From an uncultured Alphaproteobacteria bacterium (GTDB taxonomy: Bacteria > Pseudomonadota > Alphaproteobacteria > HIMB59), in contig CABZMT010000001.1 in the NCBI GenBank assembly GCA_902526965.1, forward strand, positions 62,001 through 126,000: 64,000 bases of DNA. The letters run 5' to 3'. The position numbers were made by a program, and so were the translations under genes. The notes under the pieces are model-generated. The model made no database searches. It saw only the letters and a list, made by a program, of their open reading frames with translations, and was not told the origin of the DNA. Shown piece after piece: positions 22,524 through 63,109 of this stretch. The first letter of the stretch is position 1, and each line of letters starts with the position of its first letter.

Positions 22524-23654
22524 ATGGCAAAAAAAATAACAAAAAATAAGTCCATTAAGAGAAGAAATTTCCTTAAAGGCGCCGGTGCTGTTGCACTTGG
22601 TGCTGCCGCAGTTTCTTCTTTGCCAGCACCTGCGATATCAGGAGGGCATAAAGAATGGATTGTTTGCTGTGCATTTGGTAAGGCTGGTCTTTTAGGGCAA
22701 GCCATTGCTGCATACGCAGATAATATAAATAAATACTCTGATAAACTAAAAATGAAAGTTTACTACCCTGGTGAACTTGTTCCTGGTCTGCAGTCTTTCG
22801 ATGCTGTAAGAGAAGGTACTGCACAAATGGCTTATGGTGCACCTTATTATTGGACCAATGTATCAGATGCAATTGAATTTGTTGCTACTGGACCTTTTGG
22901 TATGAATGCGATGGAACAAAATGCTTGGTGTTATTATGGTGGTGGAATTGAGGCTGCTGATAAAATTTATAATGAGCTCGGTGTAAAATTTTTACCAATG
23001 GGTAATACTGGTAACCAAATGGGGGGCTGGTTCAATAAAGAGATGAACACAGCTGATGATTATAAAGGTTTAAAAATGCGTATGCCTGGTCTTGGTGGAA
23101 GAACAATTGGAAAATTAGGAGCAACAGCTGTTTTGATGGGAGGTCCTGATATCCTTACTTCACTAGCCTCTGGTGCGATTGATGCAGCAGAATGGATTTG
23201 TCCTGTTGCAGACTTAGGTCTTGGTATGCATCAAGCAGCTAAGTTCTACTATGGACCTGGTTGGCACGAGCCTTCAACTCTTCTAGATCTTTCTATTGAT
23301 TTAAAGGAGTGGGAGGGACTTGATGCAGATACTCAAGCACTCATGATGGAAATGGCCAAAGCTTTCAACGTTGATGTATTTAGTCGTTTTCAAGCTTTAA
23401 ATGGTCCAGCTTTAGGTAAGTTACTTAATGAACATGGAGTTCAACTTAAGACTTTCCCAGATGAATTACTTATCGCTCTTGGGAACGCAGCTGGTGAGGT
23501 AATGGAAGAGAGAGGATCAATTGACTCTCAAACTAAAGCTATCTGTAATCATATTTTATCATTTAGAAAAAATATTATGGATTGGTCTACAAAAGGTGAA
23601 TCTGAATTCGCTAGAATTAGAAATTTACCTTTCAAATTTCCAGATTCTGTATAA
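22524..23654 (+). CDS. TRAP substrate-binding protein, 2-oxoacid (TakP-like) type
   Basis: 376 residues. N-terminal Tat signal KRRNFLKGAGAVALGAAAVSS, so export as a folded protein. The mature DctP-type domain has GWFNKEMNTADDYKGLKMRM, PGLGGRTIGKLGA, GAIDAAEWICP and YYGPGWHEP. The last pattern resembles TakP-type proteins that bind 2-oxoacids or lactate; the ligand is an inference. Strong AGGAGG before the start. Its permease genes are on the opposite strand and converge on it. Confidence 0.88.
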   Translation: MAKKITKNKSIKRRNFLKGAGAVALGAAAVSSLPAPAISGGHKEWIVCCAFGKAGLLGQAIAAYADNINKYSDKLKMKVYYPGELVPGLQSFDAVREGTAQMAYGAPYYWTNVSDAIEFVATGPFGMNAMEQNAWCYYGGGIEAADKIYNELGVKFLPMGNTGNQMGGWFNKEMNTADDYKGLKMRMPGLGGRTIGKLGATAVLMGGPDILTSLASGAIDAAEWICPVADLGLGMHQAAKFYYGPGWHEPSTLLDLSIDLKEWEGLDADTQALMMEMAKAFNVDVFSRFQALNGPALGKLLNEHGVQLKTFPDELLIALGNAAGEVMEERGSIDSQTKAICNHILSFRKNIMDWSTKGESEFARIRNLPFKFPDSV

Positions 23655-23666
23655 GCAATTCAATTT

Positions 23667-23688
23667 GGAGGGGCGACAAAGCCCCTCC
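23667..23688. terminator. Shared hairpin between TRAP binding-protein and permease genes
   Basis: A perfect 8-bp GC-rich stem (GGAGGGGC / GCCCCTCC) with a 6-base loop lies between the convergent stop codons. Only short T-runs follow on either side, but it is the only GC-rich patch in the gap and can serve both strands. Confidence 0.75.
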
Positions 23689-23696
23689 GTCAATTA

Positions 23697-25070
23697 TTAA
23701 AATAATTTATCTGGTAACCAGGTAGCTATTTCTGGAAAAAAACCAACTATAAATAAAGCAACTATTTGAACTGCTATAAAAGGCATAACACCCTTATACA
23801 TATTTTGGGTTTCTATTTCTTTTGGAGCCACTCCCCTTAGAAAGAAAAGTGAAAAACCAAATGGTGGAGTCATAAAACTAGTTTGTAAATTTAAGGATAT
23901 TAAAATTCCTAGCCATAAAGGATCAGCACCATTGGCAATTAAAACAGGACCAACTAAGGGCACTATTACAAAAATAATCTCAATATAATCTAAAAAAAAA
24001 CCCAGGATAAAGATTGCTGCCATAACAATAAATAATGCACCATATAACCCTCCTGGAAGCGTTCCTAAGAAATGCTCTATCATTTCATCACCATTGAAGC
24101 CTCTAAAGACGAGAGAGAACATTGAGGCACCAATTAATATCACAAATACAAAAGAACTTAATTTAACAGTGCTCAGAGATACATCTCTAACATTTTTGTA
24201 ATTTAATTGACCTTTTAAAGCTGCTATTACAGCTGCACCCACTGCGCCCACTGATGCGGACTCAGTTGGAGTCGCTATACCCATTAATATAGAACCTAAA
24301 ACAAGAAGTATTAATATTAATGGAGGGAGAATTGAAGTAATAGCATTGGTATAAATTTCAACTCTAGTTCTTTCCGTCTTAACAGGTGGACAACTATTAG
24401 GGTTAATTCTTGCATAAAAATATATCAATAAAATAAACATACCTACCAACATTAAGCCAGGCATCAGTGCGCCAGCAAATAAATCAATTGCTGTGACTGG
24501 TTCGGGAACTAAGCTACCGGTCATCATAGCTGCCTCTTCATTTGCACCTTGTAGTATGGAGGCAAGCAAAATTAAAACTATTGAAGGTGGAATTATTTGG
24601 CCCAAGGTTCCAGCAGCACAGATAGTGCCTGTAGCTATTTTTTGATCGTACCCAGCTTTAATCATTGCAGGTAATGAAAGCGTACCCATAGTGACTACAG
24701 TTGCTCCAACAATACCGGTAGATGCTGCAAGCATCATACCAACTAGCACTACCCCAACACCTAAACCACCCTTAATAGATCCAAATAACTCACCGATTGA
24801 TTGTAATAATTCTCCTGCTATTTTTGTTTTCTCCAACATTATTCCCATAAAAATAAACAATGGAACTGCAACTAAAGCCTCATTTGTCATTGTTCCAAAA
24901 ATTCTTTGAGGGAAAAAACCAAGCATTCTGAAATTAAATATTTCTAGAGCATCTCCAATAAATGCGAATATTAGTGCGGAGCCAGCTAGAGTGAAGGCAA
25001 CAGGAAAGCCAAAGAGAAGCAACACCAAGGTGCTTAGAAACATTATAATAGCTAAAACCTCAGGTGTCAT
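23697..25070 (-). CDS. dctM: TRAP transporter large permease (DctM)
   Basis: 457 residues, about 12-13 helices. Family features: MFLSTLVLLLFGFPVAFTLAG at the N-terminus, RIFGTMTNEALVAVPLFIFMG near 55, TGIVGATVVTMGTLSLPAM near 115, GTLGQIIPPSIVLILLA near 155, and NLQTSFMTPPFGFSLFFLRG near 400. Sodium-driven translocation subunit. The dctQ gene precedes it and overlaps by 11 bases. Confidence 0.93.
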   Translation of the reverse strand: MTPEVLAIIMFLSTLVLLLFGFPVAFTLAGSALIFAFIGDALEIFNFRMLGFFPQRIFGTMTNEALVAVPLFIFMGIMLEKTKIAGELLQSIGELFGSIKGGLGVGVVLVGMMLAASTGIVGATVVTMGTLSLPAMIKAGYDQKIATGTICAAGTLGQIIPPSIVLILLASILQGANEEAAMMTGSLVPEPVTAIDLFAGALMPGLMLVGMFILLIYFYARINPNSCPPVKTERTRVEIYTNAITSILPPLILILLVLGSILMGIATPTESASVGAVGAAVIAALKGQLNYKNVRDVSLSTVKLSSFVFVILIGASMFSLVFRGFNGDEMIEHFLGTLPGGLYGALFIVMAAIFILGFFLDYIEIIFVIVPLVGPVLIANGADPLWLGILISLNLQTSFMTPPFGFSLFFLRGVAPKEIETQNMYKGVMPFIAVQIVALFIVGFFPEIATWLPDKLF

Positions 25071-25575
25071 TACGCTCTGAAAAATTATTTATTGACTTGA
25101 TAATATTTGAAATGGATTGAATAAATAAAAATATACAGAAAAATAAAATTGTACTTTTAAGTATGTATAATGCAGGCAACCCTCCCACTTCTCTTGATAT
25201 CTCGTTTATTTGAATAGATCTTGTTACAAAAGTGAAACTGTATTTCCAAATTATATATAAAAATGGGAAAACAAGAATTATGTTTCCCAAAATGTCTACA
25301 ATACTTTTATACTTCTTTGAGGCATCCCTGTAAAAGACATCTATTCTTACATGTTCGTTTGAGAGGTAAGTAAAACCAGCCCCCAACATAAATATAAATG
25401 CATGTAACCACACATAGCTCTCTTGCATCCATATAAAGCTTATACCAAAGCCGTATCTAAGAACTACTACCGTAAAAACAACCAAAACCATAAGGACTGC
25501 AAATAATCCACATAGATACCCCACAGCTTTATTAACGGTATCCATGATCTTTGCTAATTTGATCAAAAGGGGCAT
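25060..25575 (-). CDS. dctQ: TRAP transporter small permease (DctQ)
   Basis: 171 residues with four predicted helices. WMQESYVWLHAFIFMLGAGFTY with downstream HVRIDVFYR is the DctQ signature (helix 2-3, Q-E-S-x-x-W-L). The gene pair dctQ-dctM is transcribed away from the structured element at 25626-25717. Confidence 0.9.
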   Translation of the reverse strand: MPLLIKLAKIMDTVNKAVGYLCGLFAVLMVLVVFTVVVLRYGFGISFIWMQESYVWLHAFIFMLGAGFTYLSNEHVRIDVFYRDASKKYKSIVDILGNIILVFPFLYIIWKYSFTFVTRSIQINEISREVGGLPALYILKSTILFFCIFLFIQSISNIIKSINNFSERNDT

Positions 25576-25625
25576 AGCCGAGAATTATATATAGAGAAAT
25601 AACTTATTAAAGTAACTTAATTATA

Positions 25626-25717
25626 GGTCGAGGTGCCAACTTTATATAAAAATAAAGCTTTTTCTCATGCGGGGTGAGGTTCGGCACCTACAAAACATGA
25701 TGTTTTCTCGATCGACC
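25626..25717. ncRNA. Candidate structured RNA with nested multi-branch fold
   Basis: A 92-base block folds into five helices: P1 GGTCGA (25626-25631) with TCGACC (25712-25717); P2 GGTGCC (25632-25637) with GGCACC (25683-25688), extendable by AAC/GTT past a bulge; P3 CTTTAT/ATAAAG (25640-25657); P4 CTCA/TGAG (25664-25678, GC-rich loop); P5 AAAACA/TGTTTT (25692-25706). It is the most GC-rich part of a 304-base gap that is otherwise very AT-rich. Strand is not settled: a T-G pair extends P4 only on the plus strand, while a TATTAT box upstream on the minus strand would make it the dctQM leader. It matches no riboswitch class I know. Confidence 0.55.
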
Positions 25718-25812
25718 AAACCTAATAATACTCAATTTATTTAGTTTTGCAGGCTTGAAATTTATCAAACCAAGAAATTGATCAACATTTTTTCCACAAT
25801 TTGATTAATTTA

Positions 25813-25818
25813 TATAAT
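25813..25818 (+). promoter_or_regulatory. -10 box for the sdh operon (tentative)
   Basis: TATAAT at 25813-25818 lies about 60 bases before the sdhC ATG. No good -35 hexamer sits at the proper spacing. Transcription from here would start downstream of the structured element. Confidence 0.3.
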
Positions 25819-25879
25819 GCATGAATTAATAAAATAATAGCTTTTTACTATAAGATTTTTTTGAATATATTGCCTTTCT

Positions 25880-26245
25880 ATGGCTCCGTTATCACCACAT
25901 TTACAAATTTATAGGCCTTTTCTAACTATGATATTTTCTATTTCTAGCAGAATAGGTGTCATAGCATTTGCATTTTCAATTCCTTTTTTTGCAATTTGGT
26001 TAGGAAGCGCAAATACACTTCCTCAGCTCAATGTTCTATTAACAATATTCTTCAACTTTTTACCAGTAAAGTTAATATTCGTTTTTTGGTTTTTTATTTT
26101 TAATCATCATTTATTAAATGGTTTTAAGTATTTTTTATGGTCGTTTGCAATTGGAATGGAAATTAAAAATGTTTATTTAACTACATACATTATATTAGTA
26201 ATGAATATTGTGATGACATTAACTTTCACTTGGATGTTATTCTGA
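25880..26245 (+). CDS. sdhC: Succinate dehydrogenase cytochrome b556 subunit
   Basis: 121 residues, three helices. The N-terminal SPHLQIYRPFLTMIFSISSR fits SdhC; quinone-site Ser20 and Arg24 are kept but the usual His in SIxHR is Ser here. The haem ligand is His77 in NHHLLNG, whereas the following GIRH of other SdhC is GFKY. Length and place before sdhD make the call secure despite this drift. Overlaps sdhD by 16 bases. Confidence 0.88.
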   Translation: MAPLSPHLQIYRPFLTMIFSISSRIGVIAFAFSIPFFAIWLGSANTLPQLNVLLTIFFNFLPVKLIFVFWFFIFNHHLLNGFKYFLWSFAIGMEIKNVYLTTYIILVMNIVMTLTFTWMLF

Positions 26246-61065: not shown

Positions 61066-61569
61066 ATGTATTCTTTTTTGATGAGAGTTATCCTCTTTTC
61101 TTTTTTGTTTATTAGCACACTCTTCGCTGATAATCATATTTTAGAGCAAGAAAACTTCGAAGCTTGGCAATTTACATGTGTTTCTGAACAAAACCAAAAA
61201 ATTTGTGATTTGAGGGAACTTGTATTTGACTCTAATACAAATGAAGTTGTCAGTTACCTTTCTATAACTATTAATCCTGAAAATTTAACACAAATGCAAA
61301 TAGCATTTCCTCATGCAGTAAATTTGAAAAGTCCTGTTAAATTACAAATAGATGATAATGATCCACTTGATCTCAATTACGCCTATTGCAATCAAAGCGC
61401 ATGTTTTGTAGCAGAAATAGTTGGAGAAAATTTTGTAAACTTTTTCAAAGCAGGAAATCAAATATCACTAAAAGTCTTATTTCTTGATAACCGAGAGGCC
61501 ACAATAACTTATTCTTTGAGCGGCTTTACAGCAGGTTATAGCAAACTATCTTCTTCGAGAGTTAATTAA
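61066..61569 (+). CDS. IalB-family periplasmic protein
   Basis: 167 residues. Signal peptide (MRVILFSFLFISTLFADNH from the second Met at 61081, which is an alternative start), then the invasion-associated locus B layout: AWQFTCVSEQNQKICDLREL, the paired cysteines in YCNQSACFVAEI, and the C-terminal LSGFTAGYSKL. Common in free-living alphaproteobacteria, so not a sign of pathogenicity. Exact role unknown. Confidence 0.8.
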   Translation: MYSFLMRVILFSFLFISTLFADNHILEQENFEAWQFTCVSEQNQKICDLRELVFDSNTNEVVSYLSITINPENLTQMQIAFPHAVNLKSPVKLQIDDNDPLDLNYAYCNQSACFVAEIVGENFVNFFKAGNQISLKVLFLDNREATITYSLSGFTAGYSKLSSSRVN

Positions 61570-61573
61570 AATT

Positions 61574-63109
61574 TTAATTTTTATTAAAGTTAATTTTATT
61601 TCTAATTATTAGTAAACATATGAGAGATGGTATTACCATAATTGCGGTTATCATAAAGAACAAACCCCAATCTCCTCCTAGCCCATCAACCATTGCACCA
61701 GATGAGGAGGCTAACAATGTCCTCCCCGCAGTTCCAACAGAAGCTAGTAAAGCGTATTGCGTAGCAGTAAAACTGCGATCAACAAGAAGTGATATGAATG
61801 TAACAAAAGCTACAGTTGCAAAAGCGGCAGCAAGATCATCAATGATAACTGCAAATGCAAAAAGAACTTTAGAGGGACCCACCCATGCTAATATTGAAAA
61901 TAGAATATTGGTAGCCGACATTGCAATTCCTGCAATAATGAGAGTTTTAATTATCCCAGATCTCATAGCAATAGCTCCTCCAATAAGTGTAAAAACAATA
62001 GTGGTTATCCATCCAAGAGCCTTTGAATAGATGGCTATATCTCCCTTTGAAAAACCAATTTCTTTATAAAAAACTAAGCTCATTCTCCCCAAAAAAGCCT
62101 CACCGATCTTAAATAGAAAAACAAACACTAAAATAGCAATTCCAATTCTTACTCCATTGTTATTAAAAAAGCTACTAAGTGGGTTTGCTACAACATTGTT
62201 TAGGTAATAAAATGTTTGTGATATTGGATTTTGATCACCCAAGTTTTTGATAAAAAGTGAAAAAATATAAAATATCGCACCAATTACAATAAAAGTAAGA
62301 CCACCATTGATAAACCATATTTTTTCAAAGAATTGACCAACTAAAAAACATAAGGCCCCAATTGCTAAAAATAGATAACTAGCTTTGATGATACTTATAA
62401 CATTTGTATTAGAAGCATCTGTATTCAAAATATTTTGAAATCTTTCTTTATTAGACTCTGGAATAAAAGACAGTCCAACATTGCATAGAACTATTATTGC
62501 CATCAAAAAAATAAAAGTTACTTGCCAATATTGATCAACTCCAGAATTCTCTAATTTCTCAGCAATCTCTAAACATATAAACCCACCTAATTTAAATCCA
62601 GTCCACCATCCAACGACTGCCATAGCAGCTCCAGCTGCCATACTCGCTGACTCTTCCTTTTTTATTTGTTCAATTCTTAATGCATCTATTGTTATATCTT
62701 GTGTAGCAGACGAAATAGCTATAGCTAAACCTACACCAATTATTAGTGCTAAATTTTGTGTTGGCTCAAGGACACTCCATATTATTAAGCAAATTAATAT
62801 TATGGTTTGCATTAAAATGATTATTGATTTTCGATGGCCTATTTTATTTGTTAAAAAAGGCAATCTCATTCGATCAATAATTGGTGCCCATAAAAAATTA
62901 AATGCGTAAACACCAAATATTAGTCCTGCCCACCCTATAGTACTTCTACTTAGACCCTCTTCTTTTAACCAAAGAGATAAAGCGCTAGCAATAAGAACCC
63001 AAGGAAATCCACTTATGATTCCTAACAACAGAATACGTATCATCCTTCTGTCGTAATAAGCGCCAATCAAGGCTTTTAATTTATTCGAATCTAATGAAAT
63101 TGAACTCAT
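61574..63109 (-). CDS. ampG: AmpG-like MFS permease
   Basis: 511 residues, 12 or more helices. GISGFPWVLIASALSLWLKEE near 35 and IGWAGLIFGVYAFNFLWAPI near 58 are the AmpG N-terminal signatures; TDITIDALRIEQ-type motif (TQDITIDALRIEQIKKEE) near 140. AmpG imports anhydro-muropeptides for recycling. Long central loop explains the above-average length. Convergent with the IalB-like gene, four bases between the stops. Confidence 0.86.
   Translation of the reverse strand: MSSISLDSNKLKALIGAYYDRRMIRILLLGIISGFPWVLIASALSLWLKEEGLSRSTIGWAGLIFGVYAFNFLWAPIIDRMRLPFLTNKIGHRKSIIILMQTIILICLIIWSVLEPTQNLALIIGVGLAIAISSATQDITIDALRIEQIKKEESASMAAGAAMAVVGWWTGFKLGGFICLEIAEKLENSGVDQYWQVTFIFLMAIIVLCNVGLSFIPESNKERFQNILNTDASNTNVISIIKASYLFLAIGALCFLVGQFFEKIWFINGGLTFIVIGAIFYIFSLFIKNLGDQNPISQTFYYLNNVVANPLSSFFNNNGVRIGIAILVFVFLFKIGEAFLGRMSLVFYKEIGFSKGDIAIYSKALGWITTIVFTLIGGAIAMRSGIIKTLIIAGIAMSATNILFSILAWVGPSKVLFAFAVIIDDLAAAFATVAFVTFISLLVDRSFTATQYALLASVGTAGRTLLASSSGAMVDGLGGDWGLFFMITAIMVIPSLICLLIIRNKINFNKN

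Follow-up and report, generated by a model that had tools for sequence, protein, structure and literature searches.

We identified a conserved structured RNA in the intergenic region between dctQ and sdhC in an AEGEAN-169/HIMB59-type marine alphaproteobacterium. The element occupies positions 25625–25717 of the window, the 64,000-nucleotide stretch of DNA that was analyzed, and it is very probably a real, conserved RNA encoded on the minus strand. The flanking genes encode the small permease of a TRAP transporter (dctQ, 25060–25575, minus strand; PF04290, E 4e-19), followed by its large permease (dctM, 23697–25070, minus strand; PF06808, E 5e-82), and on the other side the cytochrome b subunit of succinate dehydrogenase (sdhC, 25880–26245, plus strand; PF01127, E 9e-15). 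A preliminary description of this DNA had assigned a structured RNA to the interval 25576–25879. A structured element does lie within it, but the conserved part covers only about one third; the remainder on the sdhC side (25718–25879) consists largely of sequence that resembles promoters, one for the RNA and one for sdhC.

The motif is a putative small RNA with a predicted 5' end at G25717. The P1 stem (GGTCG/CGACC, 25626–25630 and 25713–25717) closes the structure, from which the P5 hairpin (AAAACATGATGTTTT, 25692–25706) branches off. The second arm begins with P2 (GGTGCC/GGCACC, 25632–25637 and 25683–25688) and carries both P3 (CTTTA/TAAAG, 25640–25644 and 25653–25657) and the P4 hairpin (CTCA/TGAG, 25664–25678), which reads CUCA-CCCCGCA-UGAG in the RNA. 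The most conserved part of the element is a single hairpin loop, the seven nucleotides of P4 (ACCCCGCA, 25668–25674). This loop is invariant among the homologues, is predicted to be unpaired in nearly all of them (the main exception is L124) and is a candidate seed. The P5 hairpin is variable, and in three homologues (L029, L030 and L040) it has grown into a longer arm with branches. Elements in relatives are approximately 80–130 nt long and share the branched fold.

The fold is more stable than expected from dinucleotide shuffles, with z = -2.8 for the plus strand and -3.4 for the minus strand; 2 of 200 and 1 of 200 shuffles, respectively, are as stable as the element. Across 16 divergent homologues, standard pairs are found in 96.4% of the cells of P1–P4, and six of the 21 pairs are changed on both sides. 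The observed double changes, the pairing percentage and the covariation score were each reached by none of 500 shuffles, and the slid controls all gave far lower values. Further pair types occur in unremarkable number (97 of 500 shuffles). Examples of compensatory change include P1, which becomes GGTTA/TAACC in L058, and P2, which is found as GGCAC/GTGCC and as GGCGCC/GGCGCC. A conserved structured RNA is therefore well supported by compensatory changes. The five helices of the preliminary description, including the closing and the nested helix, were correctly placed, and no shuffled or slid control matched the double changes in the pairs. The covariation check that it proposed came out in its favor for P1–P4.

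Several observations indicate the strand. Read as a minus-strand RNA, the paired positions comprise 310 Watson-Crick, 14 G-U and 12 unpaired cells; the same pairs read on the plus strand comprise 310, 5 and 21. The excess of G-U pairs corresponds to roughly 11 versus 3 independent events, so the wobble test taken alone is of moderate weight. The second observation is a -10 box, TATTAT (25725–25730, minus strand), of the RNA's own predicted promoter, 7 nt before G25717. Of 17 divergent homologues, 14 have a minus-strand TAnnnT hexamer at exactly this 7-nt offset from the first G of P1, with a mean of 4.24 of six matches to TATAAT, and the three homologues that lack it have TAAATC/T slightly further upstream. 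The next best offset on the minus strand reaches 5 of 17, and the plus strand never exceeds that figure. Further upstream, at about -35, is a conserved and partly palindromic box (25747–25761, minus strand; TTTTGAnTCAAAA in L024, L025 and L032) that may be a regulator site. In addition, P3 is capped by a GNRA tetraloop when L030 (GCAA) and L040 (GAAA) are read on the minus strand. Taken together, the wobble counts, the offset of the -10 box and the GNRA loops make a minus-strand RNA starting at G25717 the most likely reading, in agreement with the earlier suggestion that the element shares the strand of dctQM.

These data also bear on two other readings of the element. It could be a plus-strand leader or RNA of sdhC, from which it lies at a nearly constant distance (162–176 nt in the homologues). 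However, only 5 G-U pairs are formed on the plus strand compared with 14 on the minus, no -10 box is conserved on the plus strand (5 of 17 at best), sdhC has a leaderless-type promoter of its own, and the sdhC genes of the sister family in the same order lack the element. We rejected the plus-strand reading on the wobble and promoter tests and regard it as very improbable. Similarly, the position between divergent promoters and the inverted repeats within the element would suit an operator or cruciform acting as DNA. A DNA element of this kind is highly unlikely considering that the changes are strand-asymmetric, with G-U pairs favored on one strand, that the P3 loop takes the GNRA form on the minus strand and that the -10 box keeps a fixed offset from P1.

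The element is widespread within one genus. When 60 relatives were searched with the sequence of the gap, most genomes belonging to this genus yielded a homologue, and covariance model R1 identified the element in 42 of 52 genus genomes, with one copy in each. A second model, R2, found one strong copy in a 1.41 Mb single-contig genome (G029). In the homologous loci that were read, the element lies between dctQ on the minus strand and sdhC on the plus strand. These loci fit the AEGEAN-169/HIMB59 clade (PMC10308909). No assembled dctQ-sdhC junction was found in the ten genus genomes without the element: in G007 dctQ begins at base 34 of a contig end, in G008 sdhC is cut, and the others have no match to one or both genes. 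Outside the genus, R1 detected no element in the sister family or in other Alphaproteobacteria among the 385 genomes sampled, and R2 gave nothing convincing in 30 sister-family genomes; the one weak match from these searches had an E-value of 0.03 (G038). In the sister family, sdhC is preceded by a different, codirectional gene and the TRAP-sdh junction is absent. Exact matches to a 17-mer core beyond genus-type loci, in genome and viral collections, lack the helices around them and were set aside as chance-like; the viral matches share one unrelated sequence that also occurs in Burkholderia (L043).

The motif does not correspond to any Rfam family. A search of the window with Rfam 15 at gathering thresholds returned only tRNA elsewhere and no match on the element. 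At permissive thresholds, the element and four homologous loci gave only chance matches, with scores far below the gathering thresholds of the families concerned (16.8 versus 115 bits and 13.8 versus 150 bits). We found no record of this motif in the open-access papers searched. By the Rfam test the element is a new RNA family, although its kind, the bacterial structured small RNA, is already known, and the preliminary description of it as an unrecognized structured RNA is borne out by the covariation as well. A diverged housekeeping RNA such as 6S RNA was considered, since 6S RNA (RF00013) was found nowhere in four near-complete genomes of the genus. However, homologues of the element are 81–132 nt long with a branched fold, in contrast to the long rod with a central bubble of 6S RNA; SRP RNA is detected elsewhere in the genome; and, even with E-values relaxed, Rfam yields nothing on the element beyond chance matches. 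The 6S identity was rejected on length, fold and the missing RF00013 match, and a housekeeping RNA of any such kind is extremely unlikely.

Both neighboring genes are predicted to have promoters of a leaderless type. TTTAAT-N16-TATAAT (25584–25611, minus strand) ends 8 nt before the dctQ ATG, and TTTACT-N16-TATATT (25844–25871, plus strand) ends 8 nt before that of sdhC. Among the homologues compared, 15 of 18 have TATAAT or TATACT 8–9 nt before the dctQ ATG. The sdhC start could be read in 17 homologues, and 16 of these have TATATT or TATACT 6–10 nt ahead of it; no Shine-Dalgarno sequence was seen at either start. Over 400 kb of G029, Shine-Dalgarno motifs occur at many genes and -10-like hexamers 5–9 nt before starts show only a modest excess, so leaderless starts look real but not general. 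The -35 region of sdhC (25836–25852) contains a conserved inverted repeat around TTTTTACTATAA, with the form ATAGT..ACTAT in relatives, which is possibly a regulator site. Between the promoters of the RNA and of sdhC, a DnaA-box-like sequence, TTTTTTCCACA (25787–25799), is conserved in genus homologues; the idea of a replication origin was dropped for want of supporting evidence. The TRAP genes (22524–25575) are themselves split, with dctP (22524–23654, plus strand) convergent with dctQM on the minus strand, so the binding protein and the permeases must have separate promoters.

With a promoter so close to each start codon, the structured element lies upstream of both predicted mRNAs. It therefore looks like an independent small RNA and not like an sdh riboswitch or a simple dctQM riboswitch. 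Nonetheless, the minus-strand promoter could yield a longer dctQM mRNA in which the structure controls the TRAP transporter as a riboswitch or attenuator. The element shares the strand of dctQM and always lies approximately 43–58 nt upstream of dctQ, its closed multibranch fold resembles that of an aptamer, and the TRAP-sdh junction and the RNA are missing together from the sister family. We found no terminator-like site after the element, so read-through into dctQM is possible, yet a cis-acting leader is then left with no obvious expression platform. Furthermore, dctQ has its own -10 box, and conservation is highest in one hairpin loop instead of in a junction core. A dctQM leader is accordingly a minority possibility in our estimation, and we consider it somewhat more probable that the RNA acts in trans as an independent small RNA. 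The preliminary interpretation is thus partly supported: its riboswitch sensing a TCA metabolite is not supported, given the position upstream of both predicted mRNAs, the neighbors' own -10 boxes without Shine-Dalgarno sequences and the failure to find a terminator, and its alternative of an RNA standing alone is favored.

If the RNA acts in trans, the leading candidate target is ftsZ. The loop CCCCGCA is complementary over seven bases to TGCGGGG at the ftsZ Shine-Dalgarno sequence, which is located in the short non-coding gap between ftsA and ftsZ. In the two genomes scanned (G029 and part of G018), ftsZ is the only true gene that has TGCGGGG in its ribosome-binding window in both. The ftsZ start could be read at 21 genus loci, that of the window's own genome among them, and every one retains GCGGGG in the Shine-Dalgarno window. 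In the window's own genome, the C-terminal part of ftsZ matches in another reading frame that contains two TGA codons (L182; G000 contig C4, near 61516–61827), perhaps owing to an assembly frameshift. The predicted seed hybrid has an energy of about -15 kcal/mol, and cofolding, compared with folding the two partners separately, changes the energy by -2 to -12 kcal/mol. The RNA is thus predicted to present an accessible, conserved seed complementary to the ftsZ ribosome-binding site. Two other matches were discarded by eye: that in parA (GCGGGGTG) encodes the Walker-A motif, and in G029 the strongest duplex resembles part of a tRNA rather than a gene.

The statistical support for this target is moderate. 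In a control with 42 permutations of the 7-mer, the true word alone matched a primary-start window in each of the two genomes. If internal ATGs also count as starts, five of the 42 permuted words match both, so the evidence depends on the starts chosen (p ~0.02–0.1). Across 434 orthologous pairs, two of the 64 6-mers composed only of G and C showed any conserved occurrence in a Shine-Dalgarno window. In the sister family, whose genomes yielded no such RNA, the ftsZ Shine-Dalgarno sequence is CGGCGGAG and is unusually constant (8 of 8 genomes; L187–L194), and we found no conserved RNA partner for it; conservation of the site alone therefore proves nothing. The loop and the ftsZ site do not co-vary, as both cores are invariant. 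Overall, ftsZ is a good hypothesis, not a proven target, and is possible without yet being probable. We found neither Hfq nor ProQ in six genus genomes (G029, G028, G018, G004, G017 and G020), so trans action by an RNA with so short a seed would have to be independent of these chaperones.

We propose the following explanation. A dedicated promoter would drive transcription of the RNA on the minus strand, beginning at the P1 helix, and the rigid fold of the RNA would display the invariant C-rich hairpin loop as a seed. This seed may pair in trans with G-rich ribosome-binding sites and block translation, with ftsZ as the leading target through its TGCGGGG Shine-Dalgarno sequence. The RNA could in this way tune cell division to conditions sensed at its promoter, in the gap that separates the TRAP operon from that for succinate dehydrogenase. 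Our tests support the RNA fold, strand, promoter-like box, single copy and novelty with respect to Rfam, as well as the complementarity to ftsZ and its conservation; we infer that the RNA is transcribed separately, where it ends, that it pairs and represses in the cell, and the signal to which it responds. The joint reading, an independent minus-strand RNA whose loop pairs with G-rich ribosome-binding sites, foremost that of ftsZ, falls a little short of an even chance in our view. Its most specific form, a lineage-specific RNA that needs neither Hfq nor ProQ and whose seven-nucleotide loop places division under the promoter between TRAP and sdh, is tentative and rather unlikely. If true, it would mean that small-genome cells without detected Hfq or ProQ keep RNA-based control, and it would point to a way in which carbon supply is coupled to growth, with an RNA that may link nutrition to cell division. 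AEGEAN-169 (HIMB59, formerly SAR11 subclade V) is a ubiquitous clade of ocean bacterioplankton with small genomes.

Use of a C-rich apical loop as a seed has a precedent. In Staphylococcus, RNAIII and the Rsa RNAs direct such loops against Shine-Dalgarno sequences largely without Hfq. The candidate seed described here is of the same type, but the organism, fold and sequence are unrelated, and the effect on translation is only proposed. Intergenic candidate structured RNAs have also been identified by comparative analysis in Candidatus Pelagibacter (PMC2704228), likewise a streamlined marine alphaproteobacterium, although the text of that study gives no dct, sdh, TRAP or succinate context. EcpR1 of Sinorhizobium meliloti, also an alphaproteobacterium, is a conserved RNA that acts in trans to modulate regulation of the cell cycle (PMC4414408), as is proposed for the present element; the host group is different and no homology is claimed. 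The proposed mechanism has parallels in the enterobacterial small RNAs DicF, DinR and StfZ, which pair with ftsZ mRNA (PMC10907235). DicF and DinR occupy the ftsZ ribosome-binding site; DicF derives from a prophage message, and DinR is processed from an mRNA and requires Hfq (PMC10907235), which was not found in the six genus genomes searched. In contrast to DicF and DinR, the RNA described here would start from a promoter of its own, fold into a rigid closed structure and use a seven-nucleotide hairpin loop as its seed. We claim no sequence relationship or common origin with the three enterobacterial RNAs; the likeness lies in the proposed antisense pairing over the ftsZ ribosome-binding site, which would limit FtsZ synthesis.
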